From Halarcobacter sp. (GTDB lineage Bacteria; Campylobacterota; Campylobacteria; Campylobacterales; Arcobacteraceae), in NCBI GenBank assembly GCA_030145305.1, contig JAQYVX010000004.1, forward strand, positions 124,001 to 188,000: 64,000 nucleotides of DNA. Reading direction: 5' to 3'. Positions 40,778-58,640 of the stretch are shown in pieces. The translations under genes were made by a program, and so were the position numbers. How positions within the stretch are numbered: position 1 is the stretch's first letter; each line of letters begins with the position of its first letter. The notes under the pieces were generated by a model, which was given only the letters and a program-made list of their open reading frames with translations, had not been told where the DNA came from and ran no database searches.

Positions 40778-40799
40778 CAGTGACGCTATGTGTTCACTG
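40778..40799 (-). terminator. Small hairpin at the methyltransferase 3' end
   Basis: CAGTGA (40778-40783) and TCACTG (40794-40799) form a 6-bp stem with a 10-nt loop overlapping the stop of the methyltransferase gene. No T-tract is evident on the minus strand. Terminator function is only possible. Confidence 0.3.
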
Positions 40800-42437
40800 C
40801 TGGGTTTTGTTATGTTTCTTTCCACGATTTAATCTACGACTTGATAGTTTTTTCCAAATTTGATCAGCTAATTTTATTTCACTATCTGAAAAACCAAAGT
40901 TTTCCTTTAGTATTTTTTGATTTGTAATTTGTAATATTTCAGATATATCTTTTTTATTTCTAATCATTTCATCAATAAAAGGAAGTAGTTCAGCATTATT
41001 TTCATTATAAGGTAAAAGAATTTCTTCAACTTCATTTGGCATAAGTTCTAAAACTCCTCCACCATGACTTCTTCCACAAATTTCTGAAAATGCTAAAGAG
41101 ATAGAATTATAATAACTTGCAGTGAGTGCTTTTATATTAATATTTTCTTTTATAGTAACTCTATGCATCGTATCCGTTGTATATGCATTCGCTTCATTAA
41201 TTATAAATTTGGGATATAGATTATTTCTTCTAATAAATAAAGCATCAGAAATTCTTAATGATGGTACTATTTGCCATTCATTTCTAATTCTACATTTATA
41301 TCCTTTATGAATATTTTCGCTTTCTCCAAATTTAATATACTCTTGTACACCTTTTTCATTTTTCAGTTTAGATTTTTCAGGAAAGGTTAATAAATGAGTT
41401 CTAGCTTCTAGTTCTCTATTTTCCTTCCAATCATCTGCTGTAAAAATAGCACTAGATACTTGCACACTTCTACCAACTAACGGTTTTGAATATTTTTCTA
41501 AACTATATTTTCTTACAGTGGATAAAGGAACTGTAAAAAATGGATTTGAACCAGTTGTTATACCAACTTCTACTTTTGCATAGTTGTCTAATTTAGGAAT
41601 AATTTTGTTTTCTTGAAGTCTTTCTAAAAAATCTATCTCTTCTTGGTCTAAGAAATAGAATGTCCATTTATTAGATTTAAAATCTATTTTCTTTTTAGGA
41701 CTTTTTAGTTTAGATACATCAAGTTTTTTTAGCTCTTCAGCATCTTTTAACTCTAAATGCTCTATCAAATGTGTATCTGAATTATTTTTTTCGCAAAGTA
41801 GTAAAACAACTTCTTGCTGAATTTTGGGAAAGACTAATTTTTCAAAAGATACTATATTTACTTTATTGTAATAGTGCGCCAAAAACTCTCTTAAGGGTTT
41901 TGCATATCCAACTTGAAGTATTTCGGCAGGAAGAACAAAGCCAATTTTTCCAGTTTCTTTTAAAAGTAATGAAGAACCTATTACAAACGAAACCCAAGCA
42001 TTTGTTAATTTTGAGTATTTTATATCTGCTTTATTAAATATATCAGAAGCATATTGTTGTTGTTCCTTATCAAAATATTGATATCTTATATAAGGAGGGT
42101 TACCTATAACTAAATCAAACCTTTTATTTGTATTAATGCAATATTTATGAAAATCTGTATTTATAATAATTGATTTATCTAATTTAATACTTTTAGACTT
42201 ATTGGCTTCAATCTCATCAAATTCTATTGCAGTTACTGAATTATACTCGTAAGCACCTTTTTGAATCTCTTCTAAAAATACTCCATCACCACAGCTTGGT
42301 TCAAGAATATCTAATTTTTTATTTCCATTAAATGCCCATTTTAAAATAAACGATGCTATAGGAGAAGGAGTATAAAAACCACCTCTTAATTTTTCTTCTG
42401 ATGCATCATTAATCAATCGCATAAATATCCGATACAT
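40794..42437 (-). CDS. N6-adenine DNA methyltransferase of a type IIG-like R-M system
   Basis: 547 residues. It has an AdoMet-binding motif ('LDILEPSCGDGVFLEEI', about 40-57), the amino-methyltransferase motif NPPY in 'DLVIGNPPYIRYQYF', and 'GFYTPSPIASFILKW' at the N-terminus. The C-terminal half is a target-recognition-like region. It overlaps the 992-residue enzyme by 29 bp if the ATG at 42437 is used; ATG 42422 is an alternative. A separate adenine methyltransferase beside a fused nuclease-methyltransferase resembles Eco57I-type systems, where it modifies the strand left unmodified by the fused enzyme. The recognition sequence cannot be predicted. Confidence 0.85.
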   Translation of the reverse strand: MYRIFMRLINDASEEKLRGGFYTPSPIASFILKWAFNGNKKLDILEPSCGDGVFLEEIQKGAYEYNSVTAIEFDEIEANKSKSIKLDKSIIINTDFHKYCINTNKRFDLVIGNPPYIRYQYFDKEQQQYASDIFNKADIKYSKLTNAWVSFVIGSSLLLKETGKIGFVLPAEILQVGYAKPLREFLAHYYNKVNIVSFEKLVFPKIQQEVVLLLCEKNNSDTHLIEHLELKDAEELKKLDVSKLKSPKKKIDFKSNKWTFYFLDQEEIDFLERLQENKIIPKLDNYAKVEVGITTGSNPFFTVPLSTVRKYSLEKYSKPLVGRSVQVSSAIFTADDWKENRELEARTHLLTFPEKSKLKNEKGVQEYIKFGESENIHKGYKCRIRNEWQIVPSLRISDALFIRRNNLYPKFIINEANAYTTDTMHRVTIKENINIKALTASYYNSISLAFSEICGRSHGGGVLELMPNEVEEILLPYNENNAELLPFIDEMIRNKKDISEILQITNQKILKENFGFSDSEIKLADQIWKKLSSRRLNRGKKHNKTQQ

Positions 42438-45387
42438 TTGGTATTAAGTTATCTTTGTCTTTTAAATCATATAACTCTTTTAATAAATTTTCTAGTTCTT
42501 GTTTTTTAGTTCTAAATTGCCTTTGTAGTGGTGTTTGTTTTCTTTTATCACCATTATTTTTATCTATTCTAGTTTGCAAATTATTTAAATCTTTTTGAGT
42601 ATTTGATATATTGTCATGTAGATTTTTTAAAATAGTATTTTTAAAATCAATTTTTATAATTGGAAATTCATTTAATACTTTTGTACCTCTTGCTACAAAA
42701 CTACCTCTAAAAATTTCACCATACCAATATGCAAACCATTCTAAGTATTTTGAAGATAATAGTGCTTGAATATAGTATATTGAATAATCAGAATCACTTG
42801 GAATCTTTATCATTGCATATCCTGCGGTACCTCCTGATGATACAAAAGTACTATTATAATCAATAGAATATTTGTAACCATTTGATAATACGCCTACAAC
42901 TATTTTAGATTCGCAAATTGGAGATGTTAAATGTTGACTTCTACCAAATTTATACCAATCATTTTTATTTACTTTAGGATGTATTTTTCTTTTTAACAAC
43001 TCTTTTTTATACTTTGTAAAATACTTATAAATACCACTATAATTTGTTTTTAATTCATTTAAAGGTACTAGTTTAAGTTTACCTGTAGAATCAAGTTTAT
43101 ATGGATATATAACAAAAGAATTTGCTTGTACATCCCTGTATGAATAAAATTTTGAATCTGCTTTTCCATTTGTTTGATAATATGGCTTAGTAAGTTCTTT
43201 CTCTATCTTCCATATTTTTTTATCTTTTTCTATATAATAGTAAGTCGAGTCTTCTTTTTTTAACTTTGAATATAGGTGAATGTATAAAGAATTTGAACTA
43301 GTTTGTATGCCATTAATAATATTTTCTTCTAATACTAAATCTTTTAATAAAATGCTATTACTTATAATCTTATCGTATACATTTTTTAAGTGAGGTGGAA
43401 TCAATACCCAATTATCATCTTTAATCACTTCATTTGAAACTAGATTAGAGGTAATATTTTTTTGTGCTTTCCATTCATTTAGTTTATTAACACTTACATA
43501 ATTAAATTTTTCATTCTTTTTTTTACTTAAAATTAAAATATTTGTGTATGTTGTTTTATTATTAAAAACTTGATTTGAACCAAAAGAGATTAATGAATCT
43601 AATAGGTTATTATTACTTATAAATTTTCGTAATTTTTTTCCAGATGTAACTTTGATAAATTTACTAGGAACAATATAACCAAAGTATCCATTTTCTTTTA
43701 AAAGGTTTATCCCTTGTTCTATAAAAAGAAAATATTTATCATACTGATTATATGCAGATTGATAAATTTCTTCAAAAATTGGTTTTTCTAATGGTGTAAA
43801 CTCTTTAATGTCTTCTGTTGACATATAAGGAGGATTTCCCACAATTACATCAAATTTAGTATCAACAAAATCAAATGGGTTTATTGCATCAATATTTGCA
43901 TTGTCAGTTGCATTTGAACTAATTAAGCTATTTCCAAAGTGTATGTTTTCATCTAAACTTGGCAAAGCGGGTATTGTTATAGAAGAGTTATCTTCATTTT
44001 CTAAAAGCTTAAGAAGTAATCCAAATTTAGCAGCTTCAACGGCATTGAAATCTTTATCTACTCCAAAAATACAGTTTTTTAATATTTGTTTTTTTATGTC
44101 AAAAGGTAATTTATATGTATTTATAGATATTTGTATTAGTTTATCTACATCATTTTTTATATAATAGTCAACTAAAATATCATGTAGTAACTGATAAACC
44201 TCCAATAGAAATGCCCCCGAACCACATGCAATATCAGCAAAAGTAGAATTTAATATTTCCTTATCTGATTTATCTTCACAGTGTTTAACAACAGTTTTAC
44301 GAAGAATATCTTGAATAATAAATGTTGGAGTAGTTACAATATCTCTATCTATATGTTCTGCTTTTTTTATTAGTAATACTTCATTGTCAATAATACTTAA
44401 CTGCTCTGCTAAAAATATTTCATAAATGCTTCCTAGTATATCAGAAGCAAATACAGAAAAAGAATAAGTACTTTCAGGAAAATAAAGCTGTTTTATTATT
44501 GTCCAAAAAGATGAGCTATTATTAGAAATAATTTCATCTACAAAATCAAGATTAAAGAAACCTGCATTATATTTTTTATCTGATTCTTTGAATTTATTTA
44601 TTAATGAATTAAAATCATTTTTATCTGCATAGTTTAAAAGAGTTTTATAAGTTTCTAAATCTCTATCTTCACAAACTCTTAAAAAAACTATACTATTAAT
44701 GTAGGATTGAACAATATCATTCAGTTCTTTAATAGTTAGATCTTGTTTATGTGAGTATATTTCTTTGCCTAATAATATTCTCCAATCATTAATCTGTTTT
44801 AAAAATAATTTATCGACGCTGAATCGTTCTAATTGTGCTTCAATATCTTTCCATATTTCATCAAATCCACCATTGTAAACAATTTCATAACTTAATTGTT
44901 GTTTTATCTCTTCAAAATTTTCTTCATATTCAGAGTAATGATATAATTTAATTCTTGAGTTATTAGCTAAATCCGTGTCTTCAACTTTTTGTGAACAATC
45001 ATAAATTGCTAAATATTCAAAGTTTGATAAAACTGAAATTTTTAGTTTCGCAGTAAAGCCATATCTCCTAACTTGCTTAGCTGATTTTTCATCAGAGTCA
45101 ATCTTTACACTAGGTTTTTTAGCTTCTAGAAAAAATTTTCTTTCAGAAAAAAGTCTAAATGTATAATCAGGTTTTTTTGTAGTAGAATAAGTGTCTTCTT
45201 TTAGTCCCTCTTCTAATAAAACTTCTCGTTCATTAGTAGGTTTACCTTTAGTATTTCTAATATCCCATCCAAGTAATTCAAAAAAAGGATCTAAAAAATC
45301 TGTTCTTAATTGAGTTTCATTGTATTTAGATGTTTGATAATAACTTTTATTTTCATTGTATTTTTTAATTAAGTCTTTAATATTCAT
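42409..45387 (-). CDS. Type IIG restriction-modification enzyme (fused nuclease and adenine methyltransferase)
   Basis: 992 residues. The N-terminal region carries a PD-(D/E)xK nuclease pattern: Asp74 in 'TTKKPDYTFRL' and Glu88-x-Lys90 in 'KFFLEAKKPS'. A helical linker (about 150-340) leads to the methyltransferase core with 'FADIACGSGAFLLEVY' (motif I) and 'DVIVGNPPYMSTED' (motif IV). The remainder is a recognition domain ending in a coiled-coil-like segment. Single-chain enzymes of this design cut foreign DNA at a distance from an asymmetric site and methylate self DNA. With the overlapping methyltransferase downstream it forms a complete system beside the katG duplication. Confidence 0.85.
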   Translation of the reverse strand: MNIKDLIKKYNENKSYYQTSKYNETQLRTDFLDPFFELLGWDIRNTKGKPTNEREVLLEEGLKEDTYSTTKKPDYTFRLFSERKFFLEAKKPSVKIDSDEKSAKQVRRYGFTAKLKISVLSNFEYLAIYDCSQKVEDTDLANNSRIKLYHYSEYEENFEEIKQQLSYEIVYNGGFDEIWKDIEAQLERFSVDKLFLKQINDWRILLGKEIYSHKQDLTIKELNDIVQSYINSIVFLRVCEDRDLETYKTLLNYADKNDFNSLINKFKESDKKYNAGFFNLDFVDEIISNNSSSFWTIIKQLYFPESTYSFSVFASDILGSIYEIFLAEQLSIIDNEVLLIKKAEHIDRDIVTTPTFIIQDILRKTVVKHCEDKSDKEILNSTFADIACGSGAFLLEVYQLLHDILVDYYIKNDVDKLIQISINTYKLPFDIKKQILKNCIFGVDKDFNAVEAAKFGLLLKLLENEDNSSITIPALPSLDENIHFGNSLISSNATDNANIDAINPFDFVDTKFDVIVGNPPYMSTEDIKEFTPLEKPIFEEIYQSAYNQYDKYFLFIEQGINLLKENGYFGYIVPSKFIKVTSGKKLRKFISNNNLLDSLISFGSNQVFNNKTTYTNILILSKKKNEKFNYVSVNKLNEWKAQKNITSNLVSNEVIKDDNWVLIPPHLKNVYDKIISNSILLKDLVLEENIINGIQTSSNSLYIHLYSKLKKEDSTYYYIEKDKKIWKIEKELTKPYYQTNGKADSKFYSYRDVQANSFVIYPYKLDSTGKLKLVPLNELKTNYSGIYKYFTKYKKELLKRKIHPKVNKNDWYKFGRSQHLTSPICESKIVVGVLSNGYKYSIDYNSTFVSSGGTAGYAMIKIPSDSDYSIYYIQALLSSKYLEWFAYWYGEIFRGSFVARGTKVLNEFPIIKIDFKNTILKNLHDNISNTQKDLNNLQTRIDKNNGDKRKQTPLQRQFRTKKQELENLLKELYDLKDKDNLIPNVSDIYAID

Positions 45388-46640: not shown

Positions 46641-49412
46641 CTAAATAACTCTTGTAAACTCTTCAAAAAGCTTATCACTTAGAGGGTTTTCTAATCTTAG
46701 TTCTAAATTTATTGGTTTATTTCCTTCATACTTAGAACTATTTGCTTTTCCCAAATATATAAAACCTTGAACTTTTTTATCCACATGGGAAGATTTTCTA
46801 ACAAAAATATGAAGTTTTACTTTTTCATTTATATTTTCACATAATCTCTTACCATCACCTTTTTCTTGGGTATGGCTAGGTTTGCTTGAATAAGTAAAAA
46901 GTTCTTTTGAAAGAAAAGCATTGTGATAATTTGAAGCTTTTGAAAACTTCTCTTTTTCAATTGTTATAAATAGAAAAAAGTCATCATTATATTTTAAAAA
47001 TCCACTTCCCCTAAAAGAAGAATGTATTTTATTAAAATTACATAATTGCGCAATATTAAGCATATTGTATTTTTCATAAAGTTTAAAAAATGGTAAGCCA
47101 AAATCTTTATTTCCAAAAGATTTTTCATAAGTTAATATTCCATAATTTAAACTATCTTCAAAAATTTCTTTATACTTTTCATTTTCTAAAAGTGTTTCAA
47201 ACTCTTTTGTTTTTTTTAATTTATTTTCTTTAAATTCTACAAGTTTTAGAGATCTACTTATTTGTCCACTATCAAAATAATTTTGATTTAAATATAAAAA
47301 ACTATGTAAAATAGTCTCTTCATTTACCTTTTGTAAATACTTATTTAAAATCATTAAAGCTATTTTCTTATCACAAAAATTATTACTAAGAAGATACTTT
47401 AAAATTACAAATTCATACACTCTTTTTATAGGTAATAAAGACTGAATAAATCTTAGTGCTTTTATAAAATCTTGATTTTCTAGAAGAGTTTTTATTTCTT
47501 TTTTCTTTTCAACTTTTGATAAAAACTCTATATATGATTTTGATTCGCTTATAAAAGGAAGTGGACTTATAAGCTCATCATAATTTATAAAATCTATTAG
47601 TCTAGGAATTTTATTTCCTAAAATTGTTTTAAACTCATAATACTCTTCTTTCAAATATTTCATAGAATTAAAGTTTTCATTATCTATTTGTTCTAAAATT
47701 CTTTGTTTTGAAATTTCATCCATTGAGATAAAAGCATTATTTATATTTGCAAAATTATTTAAAAGTGATATTTTTAAACTCTCTTTATCAATTGCTTTAT
47801 TTCCTATTAGGGCAAGAGCTATTAAATAAGCCTTATTATGATTTCCTATAAAATCAAGTAAAGTCAAAAACTCTTTGTTTTTATGCTTTCGTAAACCCCT
47901 TCCTAATTGCTGTATAAAGACAATTGAAGAAGAAGTTGGTCTTAGCATTAAAACTGTGTTAATTGAAGGAATATCAACTCCTTCGTTGAAAATATCAACT
48001 GTGAAAATCACTTCTAATTTATCATTTTCATTTTCCAGTTTTTCTATTATCTCTTCTCTTTTAAAAATAGAATCCTCACTTAATAAAGAGCATGAGATTA
48101 TTCCTCTTTTGTTAAACTCCTCACTCATATATAAAGCATGTTCTTTTGAAGCACAAAAACCTAATACTTTTCTTTTATTCCCTGAAAAGGAGTAAAATTT
48201 CATCTTTTCAATTATATAATCAACTCTTCTATTCACCATCAAAAGTTTTGCTACTTCACTAATTTTTGATAAATCAATATTTTCAAAATCAATTTGTTTT
48301 ATATCACTAATTCCATAATAATGAAAAGGAGATACAAGATTATTTTCTAAGGCTTCATTTAATCTAATATCACAAGCAATATTGTCATCAAAAACTTCAT
48401 AAATAGAATTATCATCACTTCTATTTGGAGTAGCTGTTAATCCTAATAAAAATTTTGGATTAAAATATTCTAATACTTTTTTGTAAGATGGACTTGTTAT
48501 ATGATGGGCTTCATCAACAATAATATAATCAAACTGCTCTTTCGTAAAGTTTGAATAATTTGAACTTAATGTTTGAATAGTTGCAAAAATATAAACTTTC
48601 TCTTCTTCTTTTTTATTCCCTGTGTACAAGCCACAAGAAACTCCATTTATAATATCTTCAAAACTTTGTTTTGCTTTTAGTAAAATATTTTCTCTATGAA
48701 CTATAAAAAGAAGTCTTTTTGCTTTATACTTTTTTACATCAAAAGCTGCTAAAAAAGTTTTTCCTGAACCTGTTGCAGCTATTACTAGTGCTTTTTTTTC
48801 GCCTTTTAATCGCAAGAATTCTAAATTTTCTAAGGCTTTTTCTTGCATAGAGTTTATTTTAAACTCTTTTTTGTAAATAAATTGTTCGGGTTTTATCTGT
48901 TTTAAAAAGCTTTTATAGCTTTCTAAAAAAGGCTTATCTACAAAAAAAGAATCTTTCCAAAGTAAATCAAATTCGTTTAACAAAGAGTTTAAAAACTCAT
49001 CTTCTTTTTTAGAAATTGTTTTTATATTCCATTCAATATTAGTTTTAAAAGCACTTGCTGTTATATTTGAAGAACCTAATAAAATTTTGTAATCTTCTTC
49101 AAATTCAAAAATATATGCTTTGGGATGGAAGCCAATATTTTTTATAGAACAATCATAAATTTTAAGTTCTATGTTTTTAAATTCAAGAATCTTTTCCAAA
49201 GCTTTTGCTTCGGTAAAATTTAAATAAGTAGAAGTAAGTATCTTCCCTTTTATATTTTTTTCTTCAGCTAAGGCAAAAGAATCTAATAAAAGTTGAAGCC
49301 CTGAAAAGTTTATAAATGCTACATTAAAAGTAAAAGATTTACATTCACTTAAAAGTAAAATAAACTCATTATAAAAGTTTGAAACAGCACCATTTGTAAT
49401 TAGTTTATTCAA
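46641..49412 (-). CDS. PLD-like nuclease / SF2 helicase / DUF3427 protein
   Basis: 923 residues. An N-terminal phospholipase D-like domain has the H-x-K motif (H96, K98 in 'IGFHPKAYIFEF') and a downstream 'ILLGSSNITASAF', as in BfiI-type nucleases. The helicase core follows: Walker A 'AATGSGKT' (about 212-219), DEAHH (300-304), 'GLTATPNRSDD' and arginine-finger motif 'QQLGRGLRKHK'. The rest, ending near the C-terminus with 'RGSGFLKYNDDFFLFITIEK', fits DUF3427. Start is TTG. Such fusions suggest ATP-driven DNA processing, plausibly phage defence. It lies 14 bp after glucokinase, an odd partner, and about 1.3 kb from the R-M system. Confidence 0.82.
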   Translation of the reverse strand: MNKLITNGAVSNFYNEFILLLSECKSFTFNVAFINFSGLQLLLDSFALAEEKNIKGKILTSTYLNFTEAKALEKILEFKNIELKIYDCSIKNIGFHPKAYIFEFEEDYKILLGSSNITASAFKTNIEWNIKTISKKEDEFLNSLLNEFDLLWKDSFFVDKPFLESYKSFLKQIKPEQFIYKKEFKINSMQEKALENLEFLRLKGEKKALVIAATGSGKTFLAAFDVKKYKAKRLLFIVHRENILLKAKQSFEDIINGVSCGLYTGNKKEEEKVYIFATIQTLSSNYSNFTKEQFDYIIVDEAHHITSPSYKKVLEYFNPKFLLGLTATPNRSDDNSIYEVFDDNIACDIRLNEALENNLVSPFHYYGISDIKQIDFENIDLSKISEVAKLLMVNRRVDYIIEKMKFYSFSGNKRKVLGFCASKEHALYMSEEFNKRGIISCSLLSEDSIFKREEIIEKLENENDKLEVIFTVDIFNEGVDIPSINTVLMLRPTSSSIVFIQQLGRGLRKHKNKEFLTLLDFIGNHNKAYLIALALIGNKAIDKESLKISLLNNFANINNAFISMDEISKQRILEQIDNENFNSMKYLKEEYYEFKTILGNKIPRLIDFINYDELISPLPFISESKSYIEFLSKVEKKKEIKTLLENQDFIKALRFIQSLLPIKRVYEFVILKYLLSNNFCDKKIALMILNKYLQKVNEETILHSFLYLNQNYFDSGQISRSLKLVEFKENKLKKTKEFETLLENEKYKEIFEDSLNYGILTYEKSFGNKDFGLPFFKLYEKYNMLNIAQLCNFNKIHSSFRGSGFLKYNDDFFLFITIEKEKFSKASNYHNAFLSKELFTYSSKPSHTQEKGDGKRLCENINEKVKLHIFVRKSSHVDKKVQGFIYLGKANSSKYEGNKPINLELRLENPLSDKLFEEFTRVI

Positions 49413-49426
49413 ATAAAAACTCTTTT

Positions 49427-50431
49427 TTAGTCTATCTTATTTAAGTAAACTAATTTATCAAAAGCAAATCTAGCAGCACCTAATAAAGCCGTTTCTTGAT
49501 TTAAAGATACTTTTAATTTAATACCTCTTAACATCTCTTCAAATCTTCCTTTACTAAAAAAAGAGTTTAAAAAATAATCACTTTTAAGTATAGGCAAAAT
49601 CTTTGGAGCTATTCCACCACCAATATAAACCCCACCTAAAGACATACATTTTAAGGCTAAATTTCCAGCTTCTGCTGCATAAATTTCCGCAAAAAGACGT
49701 AAAGCTTCTAAACATAAAGGATCTTTATTATTTAAAGCACATTGGCTTACCATGGCACTTTTATCTTCATCTTCTTTTATATTTAACATAGCTTGAGGTT
49801 CTTTTGCAAATCCGCTTTCTAATAAAAATTCATATATTGTATAAATTCCAGCGCCTGATACTATTCTTTCATAAGAAACATGGCCGGGGTATCTTCTTCT
49901 AAGCCAAGTTAATAATTCATCTTGTGTAGAAGAGATTGGGGCAAAATCTGTATGCCCTCCTTCTGTTCCTATTGGGTGATAATCTTTTCCATCAAAAAAT
50001 AGAATTGCTTCACCCAAGCCAGTGCCTGCTGCAATTACTGCAATATTTCCTTTTGTTTCTCTTCCTGTTGGATTTAAAGAAATAAATTCATCATCTTTTA
50101 AATACAACATCCCATAAGCTGTTGCTTCTAAATCATTTAAAAGTTTTACCTTGTTTGTATTTAATTGTTCTTTTAAATCAGAGGCTTTTATATCCCAAGG
50201 TAAGTTCGTAGTTCTACATCTTTCATTTATAATAGGACCTGCAATTCCTAGGCAAAGAGCTTCTACTTTTGTGATTGAAGTTGATTTTTTAAAAGCTTCT
50301 ATTAAATCTGAAAACTTAGCATAATCTTTACTTGCGAACTGTTCTTGAGCTATGATTTTTAATTCATTTTCTTCAAGTTCATAAAGTGCCAAATTTACTT
50401 TTGTTCCACCAATATCACCAGCTAAAATCAT
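49427..50431 (-). CDS. glk: Glucokinase
   Basis: 334 residues, the length of the proteobacterial Glk family. Phosphate-binding 'LAGDIGGTKVNLALYE' is at the N-terminus, and glucose-site segments are 'NDLEATAYGM' and 'IGTEGGHTDFAP'. It phosphorylates glucose with ATP. Most Campylobacterota lack glucokinase and do not use glucose, so its presence is notable. It starts 20 bp after the phosphorylase-kinase-like gene, which may release or control release of glucose from an alpha-glucan. Confidence 0.93.
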   Translation of the reverse strand: MILAGDIGGTKVNLALYELEENELKIIAQEQFASKDYAKFSDLIEAFKKSTSITKVEALCLGIAGPIINERCRTTNLPWDIKASDLKEQLNTNKVKLLNDLEATAYGMLYLKDDEFISLNPTGRETKGNIAVIAAGTGLGEAILFFDGKDYHPIGTEGGHTDFAPISSTQDELLTWLRRRYPGHVSYERIVSGAGIYTIYEFLLESGFAKEPQAMLNIKEDEDKSAMVSQCALNNKDPLCLEALRLFAEIYAAEAGNLALKCMSLGGVYIGGGIAPKILPILKSDYFLNSFFSKGRFEEMLRGIKLKVSLNQETALLGAARFAFDKLVYLNKID

Positions 50432-50451
50432 TTTATTACCTTTTTCTATTT

Positions 50452-53400
50452 TTATTCTTCAATTTTTATCAAATTCATTAATGCTTTGATAAAAAATTCT
50501 TCAGTTTTATTTGGTGCAAGTTTATAAAAAGCACTCCAAGCTTGTCCTTTTTGTTCATCATAGTTATCCATATTATGATTTTCTTTCCATGAAATTCTAA
50601 CTGCATGCCCAATTATTACATCAAGAATTAAATCATCATCAACTTTTATATCAGGATTATTTTTAAAGAATTTAGAAAGACTTTCTAAGGCTTCTATATT
50701 TAATTTTTTATAATCAGGAGCTTCGATACTTTGAATTAAAGAATCCACTCTAAGCTCAAAAGTTCTTTCTCCAGCTGTCGTTTCTAAAGTAAATTCTGAA
50801 CCAATTCTAGAGCTTAAATTATATTTATCTCCAATTACTAAACCATTACACTGTTGCAATAAATACCAAATATTTTTACAAAAGACTGAAGATAACCTAG
50901 CTATCATCCCTGTCTCTTTTCTCCAAACAGACCAATCAGCTACTTCTTTTTCATCAAATTCTTCTTTGCTTATTTCATCTTTATTTAAAACTCCTGAAGC
51001 ATAAAGGTTTTCATGACTTATCATCTGCATTGATTTTTTTGTATAAGAGCTTAAAACTACTTTTAAAGCTTCATAAATATCATGGGGAGCAAGACTTAAT
51101 AAAACTTCATAAGAATCTGCTATTTGAAGGTTTTGTTCTTTACTTATTTTAGAAACTAATAGCTGAACAAAATACCAAGTTCTAATTGTAATTATATTTT
51201 CAAAAAGATGTGCTTGTGTTCTTAAAAGATGTCCTAAATGCAACATAATTTCTTGAGTTAATACATTTTCAGCATCATTTTTGCCACAATATTCTTTTAT
51301 TGTTTTTATTATTATTGAACTTTCCTGAGGTTTTGAAAAAGTTGCTTTTTCACTATATGCTCTTCCAACAGCTAAACGTTTTTGTCTAATTACAACTTCT
51401 AATAAAGCATCTTCTAAACGCTCATCATTTATTCCTGTTATATCTGCAATTTTCCGCACTAATGCCCAATCATGAGTTGAAGTTGCATACTCATAATAGT
51501 GTTGTGCAATTTGTGATAAACTTAAATTTTGTCCATCATAAAAAATCTCATAATCTTTACTTAAACGATTCCATAAAATTTTTAGAACATGTGTTTTTGT
51601 TTTAAAATCTACTTCATTTTGCAAAAGTTGTATCAAGTCATGGTCATTTTTAAATTCCAAATTATAAAGATTTTCAAAATTAAATTTTTCATCACTATTA
51701 CCTAAAAATGAAGAACTATAAAAAGTTTCATTTTTTAGTTTTGAAGTATAACTTTCTAATTTATATCCATGCAAATTGTCAATAGTTTCAACACCTGCTG
51801 TTTTTAATAATTGCTCTAAAGGTCCTACTTTAACACCTATATCATCGCTTTGTCCTGCTTGTAAATCATGAAGAAGTTCTACAACTTCATTTTTATTCTT
51901 ATCATTAAGCATATCTTCTCTAATTAAAAGCGGTAAAATGGGTTGTCCAGCTTGATCCCAATGTTCGGATAAAAATTTTATTGAAGATTTAAACTGTTCA
52001 ACTAAAAGTTTATTATCATAAGAAAAATAAAAACCTTTTGGATTAAAATAATATGGCAAAAATATAATATGCTCACCTGCTAAAATATGTAATCTTGCAG
52101 TTGTAATTGAACGAGGCATCCAAGAAGGTCGTCCACTTAAAAGTAATTTATCATTTTTACCAAGTTGTTCATGTACCTTTGATAATTGTGTAGCTTGCAT
52201 AATTTTAACACTATTTAATTCTTCTAAAGTTTCACTATTAAACCCTAGATTTAGTATTTTTTGTTTTACAATTTCATTTTCACTTAAAAAAGCAACCATT
52301 GGAGTTGTACTTCTTTTATGACCTATTCTTTGTCTTCTATTTAAAGGATCTATATCTCCTGGCCTTAAAATTCCTTCTAATATCATATCTGAAAGCATAT
52401 GCAAACTTTGAGCCCAAACTAAAGGTACATTTTCATTAGGAACTCTTTTTTGGCTTCCAGGATTCTCTTTTTCAGCTTTTATTAGTTCTTCTGGAACATA
52501 ATATAATTCAGGCAAAAGTTTTATTCCATCTTCTTCTATAAAAAGTGGTTCTAACTTTTTCTTCCAATATTCTATCTCATCTTTTTTCTCTCTCATTAAA
52601 GAATCAAGTAAAAAATAAGTAAAAAATAGTGGCCACTCAGATTCAATATGCTCAAACTCTTTTAGTTCACTAGACTCATAATGAAGCCTTGAACTATCTT
52701 CTATCATACTTTGGTGACCATCACGCAAGAACCTTTTACAACCATAGTTTCCTTGAAGTTTTTTTATGATTTTTTTTCTAGTTTTATTTACTATCTCATT
52801 ATTCTCAATCGCATATGCTGGGTAACCAATAATACTTAAAAGTGCTGCATCTGTCTCTTTAGAACTTGATTCTCTAGGAAGTAATCCATGTAAAGTAAAT
52901 CTTGATCTTGCTATATCACTTGGCACTACATGAATAACTGCTTCTTTGCTTAAAACATTTCCAAAGAGGTTAAAACCATCTAAGACTTCAAGTGCTGCTT
53001 TTGCCATTCCAACAGAAGAACAGTTTACTTCAGTTGAACCTGTATTAATTTTATGCCCTCTTTCCCAAATCCCAAAATCAGGAGTACAATAAGTTTTTGA
53101 AATATAATGAACTAAATTTTGTACAAAATTAACCTCATCAATTGTATAAATTAATCTCAAACCTGAAGCAGTCATTTGTGCAATCATTAAAAGAAAAAGA
53201 GAAGTTGCATCTAATTGTAAATGTCCCCATTCATCATCTTCTACAACTGGAAGTCCCGTATTTGTTCCATACTTTGCATGTAAAGAATCAATTGGCTCTA
53301 AGCTATTTTTGAATTTTTCTACTTTATTAGATTGTCTCATCATTGAAGATAAAAGACCTCTCATTAGTTTTACTACACTTTGAGAAAGCAAATAAGTTTT

Positions 53401-53622
53401 TGCATTATCTGGATTGTATTTTTTATAAGATAAAGCTAAACCCCAAACACAAAGTATGCTATAAACATTATCTCTAACCCAAGCATCAGTATAATCTCCA
53501 TGGGCTGTAATTGCAGTACTAGCAGGGAGTAATCCTGTTATTGGATCTTGTCTTGTTAAAATAATTTTATCTACTAATTTATAATATTTTTCTAATGCAG
53601 AGTTTAATTCGTCTGTCTTCAT
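50452..53622 (-). CDS. Phosphorylase kinase alpha/beta-like, GH15-related protein
   Basis: 1056 residues. The first about 400 residues form an (alpha/alpha)6 glucoamylase-like (GH15) domain with segments such as 'GDYTDAWVRDNVYSILCVWG', 'WGHLQLDATSLFLLMIAQMT', 'GIWERGHKINTGSTEVNCSS' and 'YGCKRFLRDGHQSM'. These recall the regulatory alpha/beta subunits of animal phosphorylase kinase very closely, as does 'LTQEIMLHLGHLLRTQ' further on. Nearly the whole length seems alignable. No kinase domain is present. In bacteria the role is unknown; the glucokinase gene 20 bp downstream suggests alpha-glucan hydrolysis or its control. The protein appears intact and cytoplasmic (no signal peptide). Confidence 0.85.
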   Translation of the reverse strand: MKTDELNSALEKYYKLVDKIILTRQDPITGLLPASTAITAHGDYTDAWVRDNVYSILCVWGLALSYKKYNPDNAKTYLLSQSVVKLMRGLLSSMMRQSNKVEKFKNSLEPIDSLHAKYGTNTGLPVVEDDEWGHLQLDATSLFLLMIAQMTASGLRLIYTIDEVNFVQNLVHYISKTYCTPDFGIWERGHKINTGSTEVNCSSVGMAKAALEVLDGFNLFGNVLSKEAVIHVVPSDIARSRFTLHGLLPRESSSKETDAALLSIIGYPAYAIENNEIVNKTRKKIIKKLQGNYGCKRFLRDGHQSMIEDSSRLHYESSELKEFEHIESEWPLFFTYFLLDSLMREKKDEIEYWKKKLEPLFIEEDGIKLLPELYYVPEELIKAEKENPGSQKRVPNENVPLVWAQSLHMLSDMILEGILRPGDIDPLNRRQRIGHKRSTTPMVAFLSENEIVKQKILNLGFNSETLEELNSVKIMQATQLSKVHEQLGKNDKLLLSGRPSWMPRSITTARLHILAGEHIIFLPYYFNPKGFYFSYDNKLLVEQFKSSIKFLSEHWDQAGQPILPLLIREDMLNDKNKNEVVELLHDLQAGQSDDIGVKVGPLEQLLKTAGVETIDNLHGYKLESYTSKLKNETFYSSSFLGNSDEKFNFENLYNLEFKNDHDLIQLLQNEVDFKTKTHVLKILWNRLSKDYEIFYDGQNLSLSQIAQHYYEYATSTHDWALVRKIADITGINDERLEDALLEVVIRQKRLAVGRAYSEKATFSKPQESSIIIKTIKEYCGKNDAENVLTQEIMLHLGHLLRTQAHLFENIITIRTWYFVQLLVSKISKEQNLQIADSYEVLLSLAPHDIYEALKVVLSSYTKKSMQMISHENLYASGVLNKDEISKEEFDEKEVADWSVWRKETGMIARLSSVFCKNIWYLLQQCNGLVIGDKYNLSSRIGSEFTLETTAGERTFELRVDSLIQSIEAPDYKKLNIEALESLSKFFKNNPDIKVDDDLILDVIIGHAVRISWKENHNMDNYDEQKGQAWSAFYKLAPNKTEEFFIKALMNLIKIEE

Positions 53623-53841: not shown

Positions 53842-54324
53842 GTGATTTCTACAGTTTTAAAAGATGACCGATATAAAATGGTCGAAAAAACAATGAAAAA
53901 ATTAAATTATGATAAAAGTGCTCTTATTGAGACTTTACATACCGCCCAAGAAACATTTGGATATTTAGAAAATGAGACTTTAAAATTTATTGCAAGACGA
54001 CTTAAACTTCCCTATTCAAAAGTTTATGGGGTTGCAACATTTTATCACTTCTTTAGATTAAAACCAAAAGGTAAACATACAGTTGTTGTTTGTATGGGGA
54101 CGGCCTGTTATATTAAGGATGCAAGTAATATTTTAAAAAAACTTGAAGAAAGATTTAATATTAAAGCAGGAGAAACTACTAAAGATGAACTTTTATCTTT
54201 AGTAAGTGCAAGATGTGTTGGCTCTTGTTCTCTTGCTCCAATAGCAATCTATGATAATAAAGCAATTGGTCATTTAGAAATTGAACAATCTGTAAAAGAA
54301 GCGGAGGAATTAGTAAAATGTTAA
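53842..54324 (+). CDS. hoxE: Bidirectional hydrogenase diaphorase subunit HoxE
   Basis: 160 residues. A NuoE-like thioredoxin-fold protein with four [2Fe-2S] cysteines: C84 and C89 ('VVVCMGTACY'), C125 and C129 ('SARCVGSCSLAP'). It passes electrons within the diaphorase module of the NAD(H)-linked [NiFe] hydrogenase. The start is a GTG with AAAAGGATAG upstream. It heads the operon hoxE-F-U-Y-H-W and overlaps hoxF by 7 bp. Confidence 0.93.
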   Translation: MISTVLKDDRYKMVEKTMKKLNYDKSALIETLHTAQETFGYLENETLKFIARRLKLPYSKVYGVATFYHFFRLKPKGKHTVVVCMGTACYIKDASNILKKLEERFNIKAGETTKDELLSLVSARCVGSCSLAPIAIYDNKAIGHLEIEQSVKEAEELVKC

Positions 54325-55937
54325 ATTCATTAGAAGAATTACAAGAATTAGCTGCCCAAAAAAGAGATTTAAAAAGAAACTCTCATGAAGAACTTAGAGT
54401 TTGTATTGGAAGTTCTTGTGCTGCTTTAAATGCAGATACTTTACTTAAAGATTTAAAAAAAGAAGTCAAAAATAATGGCTTGGATGAAAGATGTAAAGTA
54501 AAAGGTGTTGGATGTAATGGCCTTTGTTCTGAAGCTATTATGGTAGCGCATTATCATAAAGAAGGAGACAAGGAATCAATTTATAGTAAAATTGATACTT
54601 CAAATACTAAAGATTTTATAGATATGCTTAATTCTCAAACAAATATTGCACAAAAAAAGTGTGATACCTCTGTTCCTTTTTTCACAAAACAGAAAAAAAT
54701 TGTATTAGAAAACGCAGGAATAGTTGACCCTGATGATATTGATGATTATATCGCATATGATGGTTACCTTGCACTTTATAAAGCATTAGATGAAATGACT
54801 CCACAAGAAGTAATAAATGAAATAAAAACTTCAGGACTAAGAGGTCGTGGTGGAGGTGGTTATCCTACAGGATTAAAATGGGAAGCTGTTTCAAAAGTTG
54901 AAACAGAACAAAAATATATTGTATGTAATGGAGATGAAGGGGATCCAGGCGCTTTTATGGATAGAGCTATCATGGAAGCTGATCCTCATAAAATTATAGA
55001 AGGAATGGCACTTGCAGGATATTCTTGTGGAGCAACTAAAGGCTTTATTTATGTTAGAGCAGAATATCCAATTGCAGTACAAAAACTAAATAAAGCAATT
55101 AAACAAGCTAGAAAAAAAGGAATTTTAGGAAATCAAATTTCTGATAGTGGATTTTCTTTTGATTTAGAAGTAAGACTTGGTGGTGGTGCTTTTGTATGTG
55201 GAGAAGCGACTGCTTTAGTAACTTCAATTGAAGGGAATAGAGGAAATCCTAGACAAAAGCCTCCTCATTTAAGTGATTATGGTTTATGGAAATCACCTAC
55301 AGTTTTAAATAATGTTGAAACATTTGCAAATATTGCTCCTATTATTAGAAATGGGGGAGAATGGTATAACAAAATTGGAACACCTAAATCACCAGGGACA
55401 AAAGTCTTTGCTTTAACAGGACATATTAAAAATACAGGATTAGTAGAAGTTCCAATGGGTATGAGCTTAAGAGAACTTATTTTTGAAGTAGGTGGAGGTT
55501 TGCCCAAAGGAAGAAAACTAAAAGCTATTCAAACAGGAGGACCTAGTGGTGGTTGTATTCCTGAAAATCTTCTTGATGTTTCAGTTGATTATGAATCGTT
55601 AAAAGAGATTGGCTCAATTATGGGAAGTGGAGGATTAATTGTAATGGATGACACTTCTAATATGGTTGAAGTAGCACGTTTCTTTATGGAATTTTGTCAA
55701 AGTGAATCTTGTGGGAAATGTGTTCCTTGTCGGGTAGGAACAGTTGAATTAACTGATTTACTTGATAAATTTATAAATAAAATAGCTACTAAAAGTGATT
55801 TTGAATTACTAAAAAACTTATGTGAAGTTGTGCAAGATTCTTCACTTTGTGGTTTAGGACAAACCGCACCTAATCCTGTACTAAGTACTATAAAATATTT
55901 TGAAAATGAATACCTAGAAGGAATAAAAAATGCTTAA
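54318..55937 (+). CDS. hoxF: Bidirectional hydrogenase NADH-oxidising subunit HoxF
   Basis: 539 residues. The N-terminal thioredoxin-like Fe-S module has Cys29, 34, 66 and 70 ('VCIGSSCAAL', 'GVGCNGLCSEA'). The NuoF-like core follows with the NADH/FMN site 'GLRGRGGGGYPTGLKW' (173-188), and a C-terminal [4Fe-4S] site is 'ESCGKCVPCRVGT' plus 'SLCGLGQ'. It exchanges electrons with NAD(H). It overlaps hoxE by 7 bp and hoxU by 8 bp, so all are translated together. Confidence 0.95.
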   Translation: MLNSLEELQELAAQKRDLKRNSHEELRVCIGSSCAALNADTLLKDLKKEVKNNGLDERCKVKGVGCNGLCSEAIMVAHYHKEGDKESIYSKIDTSNTKDFIDMLNSQTNIAQKKCDTSVPFFTKQKKIVLENAGIVDPDDIDDYIAYDGYLALYKALDEMTPQEVINEIKTSGLRGRGGGGYPTGLKWEAVSKVETEQKYIVCNGDEGDPGAFMDRAIMEADPHKIIEGMALAGYSCGATKGFIYVRAEYPIAVQKLNKAIKQARKKGILGNQISDSGFSFDLEVRLGGGAFVCGEATALVTSIEGNRGNPRQKPPHLSDYGLWKSPTVLNNVETFANIAPIIRNGGEWYNKIGTPKSPGTKVFALTGHIKNTGLVEVPMGMSLRELIFEVGGGLPKGRKLKAIQTGGPSGGCIPENLLDVSVDYESLKEIGSIMGSGGLIVMDDTSNMVEVARFFMEFCQSESCGKCVPCRVGTVELTDLLDKFINKIATKSDFELLKNLCEVVQDSSLCGLGQTAPNPVLSTIKYFENEYLEGIKNA

Positions 55938-56649
55938 AGAAAAAGTAAGAGTTAAAACCTTTAAAATTAATGATATAGATGTAACAGCTAAATCAGATTC
56001 TTCTATTTTAGAAGTTGCGCGGGAACATGATATAGAAATTCCAACTTTATGTTATTTAGAAGGTTTATCCTGTGTAGGTGCTTGTAGAATGTGTTTAGTT
56101 GAAGTTAAAGGTAATAATAAATTAATTCCTGCTTGTACTTCAAAAATAAAAGATGGTATGGAAGTTATTACAGATTCACCAAAACTAGAAGCACATAGGA
56201 AAATGATTTTATCTATGATTTTTGCAGAAAGAACACATACTTGTAGTGTTTGTGTTTCAAATGGACATTGTGAGCTTCAAAATCAAGCAGTGGAATTAAA
56301 ATTAGAACATTCTCATGTCCCTTATATACATAAGCATTTTGATATTGATGCTTCACACAAAGATTATGTTTATGACCCAAATAGATGTATTTTATGCACA
56401 AGATGTGTTAGGGTTTGTGATGAAGTTGAAGGAGCTCATGTTTTAGATGTAGCTGGCAGAGGAATAGATGCTAGGATTGTTCATGATATGGGTGAACCTT
56501 GGGCAGATAGTGAAAGCTGTACTTCTTGTGGAAAGTGTGTACAAGTTTGTCCAACAGGTGCACTTTTTGAAAAAGGTGTGAGTGCAACGGAAATGATTAA
56601 AAAGAAAAATATTGTAACAAATCTAATTCAAATAAGGAAAAACAGATGA
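55930..56649 (+). CDS. hoxU: Bidirectional hydrogenase Fe-S subunit HoxU
   Basis: 239 residues. A NuoG-like electron relay subunit. The plant-type [2Fe-2S] cysteines are C41, C52, C55 and C69 with the usual spacing. A His/Cys [4Fe-4S] site is in 'HTCSVCVSNGHCELQ', and two ferredoxin-type clusters are in 'CILCTRCVRVCDE' and 'CTSCGKCVQVCPTGAL'. It links the HoxF diaphorase to the HoxY-HoxH hydrogenase. It overlaps hoxF by 8 bp and hoxY by 4 bp. Confidence 0.95.
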   Translation: MLKEKVRVKTFKINDIDVTAKSDSSILEVAREHDIEIPTLCYLEGLSCVGACRMCLVEVKGNNKLIPACTSKIKDGMEVITDSPKLEAHRKMILSMIFAERTHTCSVCVSNGHCELQNQAVELKLEHSHVPYIHKHFDIDASHKDYVYDPNRCILCTRCVRVCDEVEGAHVLDVAGRGIDARIVHDMGEPWADSESCTSCGKCVQVCPTGALFEKGVSATEMIKKKNIVTNLIQIRKNR

Positions 56650-57197
56650 GTACAGAAAATATTAAAAAGCTCAAAGTAGCAACTGTATGGCTAGATGGAT
56701 GTTCAGGCTGCCATATGTCTTTTCTTGATATGGATGAGAGAATTATTGAATTGGCTCAACATATGGATATAGTTTATAGTCCTTATGTTGATGCAAAAGA
56801 AATTCCTGAAGATATAGATTTATTTATTGTTGAGGGTGCATTAAGTACAGATCATGATTTAAAAATTATTCAAACTATTAGAAAAAACTCTAAAAAGATT
56901 CTAGCTTTAGGAGATTGTGCAATTACTGGAAATGTTTCATCTTTAAAAAATCTAGCAGGAACAGAAGCAGTTTTAGAAAGAGGATATTTTGATTTAGCAG
57001 ATTTTAATAAAGGAAAATATCCAGACAAAATTATTCCAAAACTTTTAGATAAAGTGATTCCGTTAAATGAGGCAATAGAGATTGACTATTTTGTTCCTGG
57101 TTGTCCAACTCCAGCAGATGCAATTTATGCAGTTTTAAAAGGTTTAGTTGATGGAGTTGAAGTTGATGTTAGTAAATATACAAGATTTGGTTTATAA
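56646..57197 (+). CDS. hoxY: [NiFe] hydrogenase small subunit HoxY
   Basis: 183 residues. It binds the proximal [4Fe-4S] cluster: 'DGCSGCHMSFLD' (C19, C22), 'ALGDCAITGNVSS' and 'VPGCPTPAD'. The short form without a C-terminal cluster domain and without a Tat signal is typical of cytoplasmic group 3d enzymes. It overlaps hoxU by 4 bp; hoxH follows after 9 bp. Confidence 0.94.
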   Translation: MSTENIKKLKVATVWLDGCSGCHMSFLDMDERIIELAQHMDIVYSPYVDAKEIPEDIDLFIVEGALSTDHDLKIIQTIRKNSKKILALGDCAITGNVSSLKNLAGTEAVLERGYFDLADFNKGKYPDKIIPKLLDKVIPLNEAIEIDYFVPGCPTPADAIYAVLKGLVDGVEVDVSKYTRFGL

Positions 57198-57206
57198 GGA
57201 AATAGT

Positions 57207-58640
57207 ATGGCAAAAAAAGAAAAAATAGTAATTAGTCCCGTAACAAGAATAGAAGGACATGCGAAAATCACTATAGACTTAGATGAAAATAAAAATGTAG
57301 AAGATGCAAGAATCCATGTAACTCAATATAGGGGCTTTGAAAAAATATGTGAAGGACGTCCTTACACAGAAATGCCTGCACTAACAGCAAGAACTTGTGG
57401 AATCTGTCCTGTAAGTCATGCAATATCTTCTACTAAAGCTTGTGATAATTTATTAGCAGTACGTCCTCCAAAGGCTGGTAGAAATTTAAGAAGAATTATA
57501 AACTTAGGACAAATTATACAATCTCACGCCCTAAATTTTTATCACTTAAGTGCTCCTGATTTTATATATGGATTTGATGCACAAGCTGAAGATAGAAATA
57601 TTTTTAAAATGATGCAAACTCATCCTCAAATGGCAAAAGAAGGTATAAGACTTAGAGCTTTTGGACAAAAAGTTATTGAAACTCTAGGTGGAAAAAGAAT
57701 TCATCCTACTTGGATAGTCCCAGGTGGAGTTAGTCATGAAATTACAGAAGAGACAAAACAAACAATTTTAGCTCAAATACCAGAAGCTTTAGAAATAGCC
57801 CAAAAAGCTTTAAAATATTACACTGATAATTTACATAAATTTCAAAAAGAGATTAATTCTTTCGCAAACTTTCCTTCACTATTTATGAGTCTTGTAAATA
57901 AAAAAGGGAACTTAGAGCATTATGATGGATTTTTAAAATTTATCGATAGTGAAGGAAAAGTTTTAGAAGAAGGAATTGATCCTAGATTTTATAAAGAGTA
58001 CATAGGCGAAGCAGTAGAAGAAGATTCTTATTTAAAATCTCCTTACTATAAACCTCTTGGATATCCACAAGGAATGTATAGAGTTGGACCATTAGCACGT
58101 TTAAATATTGCAAATGCTTGTGGAACACCATTAGCAGATATTGAATTTGAGAAATTTAAAAATTTAAATAATGGGAAACCTGTATTAAACTCCTTTTATT
58201 ATCACTATGCAAGACTAATTGAAATTATTTATGGAATAGAAAGAATTGAACAACTTCTAAATGAACCAGAAACTTTAGACTCACAAGTAAGAGCGCATGC
58301 TACAATAAATAGAAATAGAGGAGTTGGTTGTTCTGAAGCTCCAAGAGGAACCTTATTTCATGATTATGAAGTGTCAAATACTGGGATTATTACAGGAGTA
58401 AATCTAATTATTGCTACAGGAAACAATAATTTAGCTATGAATGCAGGAGTTAAACAAGTAGCTCAAGCTTTTGTAGATGGAAATGATATAAAAGATGGAG
58501 CTTTAAATAGAGTTGAAGCTGTTATTAGATGTTTTGATCCATGTTTAAGCTGTTCTACTCATGCATTAGGTACTGTTTCTTCAAAAATAGAGATTAGAGA
58601 TTCTAAAAAAAATATTATACAAGTTTTAAATAGAAACTAA
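57207..58640 (+). CDS. hoxH: [NiFe] hydrogenase large subunit HoxH
   Basis: 477 residues. The Ni-Fe active-site cysteines are C64 and C67 ('ARTCGICPVSH') and C446 and C449 ('DPCLSCSTH'). After His452 comes a 25-residue tail that a maturation protease should remove. Other family segments are 'SPVTRIEGHAKI' at the N-terminus and 'EAPRGTLFHDYE'. This is the catalytic subunit, oxidising or producing hydrogen coupled to NAD(H). The probable protease gene is 5 bp downstream. hyp genes for cofactor assembly are not in the window. Confidence 0.96.
   Translation: MAKKEKIVISPVTRIEGHAKITIDLDENKNVEDARIHVTQYRGFEKICEGRPYTEMPALTARTCGICPVSHAISSTKACDNLLAVRPPKAGRNLRRIINLGQIIQSHALNFYHLSAPDFIYGFDAQAEDRNIFKMMQTHPQMAKEGIRLRAFGQKVIETLGGKRIHPTWIVPGGVSHEITEETKQTILAQIPEALEIAQKALKYYTDNLHKFQKEINSFANFPSLFMSLVNKKGNLEHYDGFLKFIDSEGKVLEEGIDPRFYKEYIGEAVEEDSYLKSPYYKPLGYPQGMYRVGPLARLNIANACGTPLADIEFEKFKNLNNGKPVLNSFYYHYARLIEIIYGIERIEQLLNEPETLDSQVRAHATINRNRGVGCSEAPRGTLFHDYEVSNTGIITGVNLIIATGNNNLAMNAGVKQVAQAFVDGNDIKDGALNRVEAVIRCFDPCLSCSTHALGTVSSKIEIRDSKKNIIQVLNRN

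Follow-up and report, generated by a model that had tools for sequence, protein, structure and literature searches.

A phosphorylase kinase-like protein of Halarcobacter, encoded beside glucokinase, with a predicted GH15-type catalytic site

Introduction

What would a bacterium do with a protein built like the large regulatory subunits of animal phosphorylase kinase (PhK)? A 64,000-nucleotide stretch of Halarcobacter sp. DNA (assembly GCA_030145305.1, contig JAQYVX010000004.1, positions 124,001–188,000 of the forward strand; here the window) encodes such a protein immediately upstream of a glucokinase (Table 1). Passages of the 2024 PhK structure paper (PMC10978961) describe inactive glucoamylase-like domains in the animal enzyme, for a reason that still needs investigation, and the window protein may show the original role of the animal large subunit. 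What is observed is homology along the whole protein, conservation of the catalytic residues, the gene order and co-occurrence; hydrolysis, inversion, the substrate and assembly through D4/D5 are inferred. The protein is, with reasonable probability, a cytosolic, inverting α-glucan exo-hydrolase of GH15 type on a PhK D2–D5 scaffold, whose glucose would pass to the co-encoded glucokinase.

Results

PhK likeness over nearly the full length

Open reading frames and lengths of both genes (1056 and 334 residues) stand as first read from the DNA. The sequence-only reading had also claimed resemblance to PHKA/PHKB over most of the protein, with no kinase domain; Pfam, phmmer and a structural model all agree. 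In Pfam, the 1056-residue protein matches Glyco_hydro_15 (PF00723; 254 bits against a cut-off of 22, residues 9–815) and KPBB_C (243.4 bits, residues 829–1055), with no kinase family among its matches. Searching PDB chains with phmmer retrieves the human α subunit PHKA1 (650 bits; residues 9–609, 668–858 and 892–982) and the β subunit PHKB (528.6 bits; residues 8–824 and 897–1052), the only matches of this single-protein search of PDB sequences. A profile of 51 relatives scores the two at 1058.7 and 867.4 bits.

An AlphaFold2 model built on an alignment of 51 relatives (pLDDT 81.4, pTM 0.82; confidence below 50 at residues 184–195, which hold Glu187, 292–316, 323–326 and 631–633) superimposes on PHKA1 over 796 residues (Z 48.7, rmsd 3.0) and on PHKB over 812 (Z 42.8). 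Residues 894–1055 match the PhK chain piece 8xyb_A (its residues 1051–1217; Z 18.1). This C-terminal match, KPBB_C and the long PHKA1 alignment place the likeness beyond the GH15 domain; confinement to that domain is ruled out by KPBB_C, the almost end-to-end PHKA1 and PHKB matches and the model alignment.

Over D1–D2, PHKA1 shares 47.6% identity with the window protein and up to 55.4% with cyanobacterial members, both closer than PHKB (41.9%); PHKB shares 38.4% and up to 48.3%, respectively. The window and human proteins have in common a GH15-like D1 and a C-terminal domain on one chain, with the glutamate pair as in PHKA1. In contrast to the human proteins, the window protein lies beside glucokinase, lacks a kinase domain and keeps a loop and residues that are altered in human. 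It ends in LIKIEE and lacks the C-terminal CaaX farnesylation motif described for human PhK α and β (PMC10978961, in part). No signal peptide is evident by eye, so we take the protein as cytosolic.

Table 1 Features of the PhK-like/glucokinase locus (window coordinates)
Feature	Position	Strand	Evidence
PhK α/β-like GH15 protein, 1056 aa	50452-53622	(-)	ORF; Pfam GH15 and KPBB_C; PHKA1 650 bits; model
Glucokinase, PF02685 type, 334 aa	49427-50431	(-)	Pfam, TIGR00749, tree
20-nt gap between PhK-like gene and glucokinase ATG, with ribosome-binding-like AAAGG	50432-50451	(-)	Direct sequence reading
D1, GH15-like (α/α)6 barrel, about residues 1–430, boundary approximate	52333-53622	(-)	Structural alignment of residues 1–419/420 to isomaltose glucohydrolase 5z3c/7c24, Z about 26.8
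KPBB_C C-terminal domain, residues 829–1055	50458-51138	(-)	Pfam 243.4 bits; 894–1055 part matches 8xyb_A
Tyr44, α1–α2 loop; putative counterpart of KfIG Tyr48 (general-base contact)	53491-53493	(-)	97/97 rows; motif and spacing
Arg50-Asp51, subsite −1 dyad of GH15	53470-53475	(-)	97/97 rows; likeness to dextran dextrinase Arg542/Asp543
Glu187, predicted general acid (IWERG), equivalent to PHKA1 Glu185; α5–α6 loop	53062-53064	(-)	97/97 rows; model
Glu372, predicted general base (LLPELY), equivalent to PHKA1 Glu371, Lys in PHKB; α11–α12 loop	52507-52509	(-)	97/97 rows; model

A widespread bacterial family

The window protein is no lone oddity; it belongs to a bacterial family that is widespread. 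KPBB_C exceeds its cut-off in 14 of 397 genomes in the Campylobacterota draw, counting that of the window, and in 11 of 321 gammaproteobacterial genomes (the class of Methylobacter); it is found in 60 of 244 cyanobacterial ones (59 over the cut-off). The centre genome is counted in the latter two draws. One of 14 control genomes, Synechococcus elongatus, has a match. Scanning named genomes yielded at least 583 confirmed relatives; the 80 loci kept form the named set.

Pfam already knows the family, and the PhK likeness of a bacterial gene is already published: E. coli PkgA of the ETT2 locus is named 'phosphorylase kinase and glucoamylase' in a table of PMC3977695. That name reflects the same likeness, in a different locus. 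In the plasmids collection, two E. coli records (4.8–4.9 Mb) hold a partial, weak match (27%, to residues 19–334) and may be PkgA. Our literature searches found no experiment on the bacterial family, nor was the PhK-like/glucokinase pair found in open-licence PMC literature, judged mostly by title and abstract. A 'glycogen phosphorylase kinase' is less abundant in warmed, urea-grown marine Synechococcus (PMC6716455, in part); it may be the cyanobacterial family member.

A quick 74-row tree joins the two human long branches, that of PHKB being the longer. In a careful 27-row tree, unrooted, PHKA1 falls on a long branch between the cyanobacteria and the rest (91/46); given this weak placement, we claim no origin from a given phylum.

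A predicted GH15-type active site

We sought the GH15 catalytic glutamates, whose presence the sequence-only reading had raised, in the model. Glu187 lies between α5 and α6 and Glu372 between α11 and α12, the GH15 layout, and Tyr44, Arg50 and Asp51 sit in the α1–α2 loop. That layout, the role of the tyrosine at the general base and dextran dextrinase Arg542/Asp543 come from passages of PMC12446779; our alignment also reproduces the human Glu185/Glu371 numbering of PMC10978961. Apart from one chance match (E 3.1), the PDB sequences retrieved with profiles A2 and A3 are those of PHKA1 and PHKB. Because these profiles matched no other GH15 structure, Tyr44 is equated with Tyr48 of the isomaltose glucohydrolase KfIG from motif and spacing, together with its position in the loop.

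Nine residues (Glu187, Glu372, Tyr44, Trp48, Arg50, Asp51, Trp132, Asp138 and Trp403) are identical in 97 of 97 bacterial rows, comprising 87 (of 94, copies identical over the last 900 residues having been dropped) and 10 from the gammaproteobacterial draw, with at least one repeat (L041 and L138). The named set was found with patterns drawn from residues 41–56, so conservation within this segment is partly due to selection; neither Glu187 nor Glu372 falls within the patterns, and no pattern was used for the genome draws.

Leaving PhK aside, a structural search ranks GH15 enzymes and dextran dextrinase nearest to the model: KfIG (5z3c, Z 26.8 over 332 residues), dextran dextrinase (Z 24.0) and Aspergillus glucoamylase (Z 22.2). 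With KfIG (5z3a–e, 7c24, 7c25) and glucoamylases, insofar as the sources describe them, the protein shares the (α/α)6 barrel with acid and base glutamates in the same loops and, by motif, the subsite −1 tyrosine and Arg-Asp dyad. It differs in its added D2–D5, identity of about 15% by structure and a leucine in place of glutamine after the base.

With an isomaltose enzyme as nearest GH15 fold, specificity has to be weighed. The protein could be an active GH15 hydrolase acting on α-1,6 limit-dextrin stubs (debranching), isomaltose or trehalose, its glucose still going to glucokinase. The sole PF00128 match in the window's genome is a 590-residue protein that most resembles sucrose phosphorylase, though its score stays under the cut-off of that model; a classical GH13 debrancher is thus not seen there. 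Against this, KfIG perhaps ranks first only by being a bare barrel, and the genome's three GH57 proteins could debranch. Trehalase was rejected, the TreH1 model NF041084 scoring 23.8 against a cut-off of 820. We consider such other specificities improbable.

Residues flanking the base bear on a further alternative, a retaining transglucosidase like dextran dextrinase that remodels glycogen chains while glucokinase clears by-product glucose. Dextran dextrinase has the same catalytic glutamate pair (PMC12446779, in part) and comes next by fold, and the leucine after the base also suits this reading. Pro371 speaks for inversion instead: in the passages of PMC12446779 describing these enzymes, proline precedes the base in inverting AgGD and KfIG, with serine in TtGA and glycine in dextran dextrinase. 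We judge transglucosylation very unlikely.

Gene order with glucokinase

The pairing with glucokinase noted from the sequence is confirmed: a PF02685 gene (341.8 bits against a cut-off of 22.1) lies 20 nt downstream. Its 334-residue product also matches TIGR00749 (263.4, cut-off 225.45) and scores 310.3 with NF001415, below the cut-off of 333. The short gap, with an AAAGG stretch before the ATG, suggests co-transcription. Rfam found no RNA feature in the window at gathering score; a promoter and terminator scan gave 45 promoter-like sites (41.5 by shuffle) and no terminators.

Recurrence of this order is high within the phylum. Glucokinase follows directly on the same strand in 13 of the 14 Campylobacterota draw genomes (the window and 12 of 13 relatives), the exception (L024) having 3.9 kb of downstream sequence free of it. 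The named set agrees, with 26 of 28 Campylobacterota-type loci that have at least 1 kb of room; three more lack room, and 7 of these 31 loci (L029, L030, L035, L042, L043, L053, L054) repeat draw genomes. Four of seven named gammaproteobacterial loci, all Methylococcaceae, have a downstream glucokinase (L073, L077, L088, L092); L055 and L062 do not, and L041 has no room. Among the 11 genomes of the gammaproteobacterial draw, G397 (locus L088) and five others show it, the L136 copy cut by the contig end. In L142, where downstream room is lacking, a glucokinase sits divergently 309 nt upstream; none is present in L134 or L135, and L138 and L141 lack room.

Glucokinase had been called rare in this phylum. 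For the phylum as a whole this does not hold, PF02685 being found in 61 of 394 Campylobacterota genomes; it does hold outside families f2 and f3, which account for 46 of these, with two borderline and 13 left. Twelve of these 13 confident glucokinases are partners of a PhK-like gene; that of G327 is not.

The partners come from two lineages. A careful 45-row glucokinase tree, which carries a long-branch warning, includes 18 Campylobacterota partner or orphan rows, 8 gammaproteobacterial partner rows (L136 dropped as too short), 11 of the 46 f2/f3 enzymes and 3 cyanobacterial ones. Downstream partners of Campylobacterota and gammaproteobacteria fall on one side, with the cyanobacterial and two non-partner gammaproteobacterial enzymes. 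On the other (100/100, subject to the same warning) are the f2/f3 enzymes and the divergent partners of L055 and L142, a distant lineage lying beside or upstream of the PhK-like gene. The PhK-like proteins of these two loci are sisters in the quick tree, inside a starred group of 34 rows that is otherwise Campylobacterota-type, L041 apart, and their pairing may be one event. The presence of two distant glucokinase lineages beside the PhK-like gene favours a functional link over simple inheritance as a block; in view of this and of the recurrent adjacency, we reject pairing by chance.

Metabolic setting

Among relatives, locus L023 reads zwf-pgl-edd-eda-PhK-like-glk and L015 phosphorylase-pgk-PhK-like-glk-phosphoglucomutase; in L025 a phosphorylase gene is just upstream. 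Members of the zwf, pgl and edd clusters lie at most six genes away in 6 of the 80 named loci each, including L043 (same contig as L023). Some loci have unrelated neighbours (chaperonin, patatin, sulfite reductase, M48 peptidase), and only part of the neighbours were identified.

In the window's own genome, an α-glucan locus (L109:2963-17414) starts about 2 kb beyond the window. It encodes FBPase, a GH57 branching enzyme, phosphoglucomutase, a short α-glucan phosphorylase, GlgA, a GalT-like protein, a GH57 protein, a nucleotidyltransferase-mutase and phosphofructokinase; best NCBIfam matches of the branching enzyme are Thermococcales and Thermus models, below cut-offs. Elsewhere in this genome, L184:1885-6906 holds a glucosyl-3-phosphoglycerate-synthase-like protein, a sucrose-phosphorylase-like GH13 and an MPGP-family phosphatase, adjoining a G6PD-like gene; this is likely a glucosylglycerate operon, most matches being below cut-offs.

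Glycogen synthase (PF08323, E <1e-10; weak matches in 11 more genomes left out) occurs in every one of the 14 Campylobacterota carriers of the PhK-like gene and in 60 of 383 other genomes, 74 of 397 in all (hypergeometric 2e-11; 0.001 at genus level over 24 hand-counted genera, ancestry not fully removed). All 11 gammaproteobacterial carriers have it too, against 4 of 7 non-carriers, so that it occurs in all 25 carriers tested. A phosphorylase-family gene is found in 14 of 14 Campylobacterota carriers and 2 of 6 non-carriers. Non-carrier controls in these smaller comparisons were hand-picked, G327 for its glucokinase alone.

The earlier suggestion of a route from α-glucan to glucose 6-phosphate, its hydrolytic step predicted, thus gains from gene order in Campylobacterota and gammaproteobacteria, glycogen synthase co-occurrence and invariant GH15 catalytic residues.

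Altered pockets in the human subunits

According to passages of PMC10978961, D1-α of human PhK keeps Glu185 and Glu371 and D1-β lacks some catalytic residues; neither PhK complex tested shows detectable activity on maltose, isomaltose or glycogen. We compared one α and one β sequence with the bacterial family. Of 137 positions between residues 10 and 609 that are invariant in bacteria (at most one exception), 15 are changed in PHKA1 and 38 in PHKB. The α1–α2 loop of PHKA1 is six residues shorter, with a glutamine aligned to Tyr44, though a tyrosine two residues before it in the PHKA1 sequence could replace Tyr44. Further PHKA1 changes at such positions are E251A, H303Y, Q304K, N398K and L401H, at residues that presumably line the pocket; those of PHKB include W48K, R50Q, W132Y, D138N and E372K. 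The shorter loop and changed residues of PHKA1 could explain the published absence of glucoamylase activity in human PhK.

Weighing hydrolysis against sensing

Several observations weigh against a hydrolase serving glucokinase. PHKA1 has both glutamates, yet PhK shows no detectable activity on the three substrates named above, so the pair alone is no proof of catalysis. Leu373 follows the base where the three inverting GH15 enzymes in the passages of PMC12446779 have glutamine, and model confidence is below 50 at 184–195, around Glu187, and at 292–316. Adjacent glucokinase occurs in none of 36 cyanobacterial loci with room (6 lack it), and in the three cyanobacterial carriers searched whole (G398–G400) the enzyme is encoded elsewhere in the genome. 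The PhK-like gene also stands without an adjacent glucokinase in L024/L042 (one genome), L048 and gammaproteobacterial L062, L134 and L135. Conversely, G327 has a cassette-lineage glucokinase alone (L028:4354-5340) and no KPBB_C match; it is possible that this genome lost the PhK-like partner. Sixty of the phylum's 74 glycogen-synthase genomes lack the PhK-like gene, which is hence dispensable for glycogen use. Finally, a response regulator with an HD domain is encoded just upstream in L020 (L020:7464-8504).

This last gene, with clustered homologues near the PhK-like gene in L023 and L026, would suit a catalytically silent sensor of glucans or glucose oligomers, in which the pocket binds chain ends and D2–D5 signal to glucokinase, phosphorylase or glycogen synthase, paralleling a possible role of the PhK subunits toward their kinase. 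Binding without measured activity has a precedent in PhK, where PHKA1 carries the intact pair and acarbose is reported to bind, raising kinase activity (PMC10978961, in part); moreover, every aligned relative retains about 600 residues outside the barrel. A sensor fits less well with a pocket that is the same in all 97 bacterial rows but partly lost in PHKA1 and PHKB. Also against it are the steadiest neighbour, an enzyme that uses the expected product, and the metabolic character of the other named neighbours (Entner–Doudoroff genes, phosphorylase, phosphoglucomutase), only some neighbours having been identified. We think a sensor unlikely, while giving it some weight because the glutamate pair is conserved in the silent human α subunit.

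Neighbouring genes

A gene 14 nt downstream of glucokinase (46641-49412(-)) encodes PLD-like, helicase and DUF3427 domains, its best PADLOC match being a type IV methyl-directed restriction enzyme (517.6 bits); three relatives of the same genus (L020, L026, L027) likewise have it after glucokinase. A small restriction island lies close to the PhK-like/glucokinase cassette at 40794-45387(-), with genes for a type IIG restriction enzyme-methyltransferase (1176.9 bits) and for a type II methyltransferase (670.4 bits). On the other flank, a divergent five-gene set (53842-58640(+)) encodes NuoE/F/G-like proteins together with the small and the NiFe large subunit of a hydrogenase, and resembles a bidirectional NAD-linked enzyme; a hydrogenase-like set is the divergent neighbour in L027 as well.

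Discussion

As a GH15-type hydrolase, the protein would release glucose from maltodextrins or glycogen-derived chains at their non-reducing ends, with Glu187 as acid and Glu372 as base. The adjacent glucokinase would trap this glucose as glucose 6-phosphate for glycolysis or the Entner–Doudoroff pathway, giving a hydrolytic branch alongside the phosphorylase route. D4/D5 may form dimers, by likeness to D5-β, which makes dimers in PhK (PMC10978961, in part).

In favour of this reading, free glucose has been reported in a methanotroph. On methane, a gdh/glk double mutant of Methylotuvimicrobium alcaliphilum contains 7.3 mg glucose per g against 0.14, and its glycogen falls from 138 to 0.20 (passages of PMC8062543); PMC6406325 likewise speaks, in part of its text, of glucose from glycogen. 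The PhK-like protein would be a further candidate source of free glucose in a methanotroph with blocked glucose phosphorylation and oxidation. PMC8062543 itself, in the passages concerned, attributes the glucose to glycogen by way of GlgP, GlgX and MalQ and not to a GH15 protein, which adds to the points weighing against our proposal; 'GH15' and 'glycoside' are absent from its main text.

On evolution we can offer a tentative account, and a rather doubtful one. The bacterial proteins would represent the original, glucan-cutting state of the PhK large subunits, already carrying D2–D5 and selected to act together with a glucokinase; animals would have added the kinase while the pocket decayed to a ligand-sensing relic, D1-α having fallen silent through its short loop and substitutions.

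The tie to glucokinase and the altered human pocket make the PhK question testable. With an intact pocket, glycogen metabolism and, often, a glucokinase partner, bacterial members allow direct experiments on the ancestral function, and they predict which human residues account for the lost activity.

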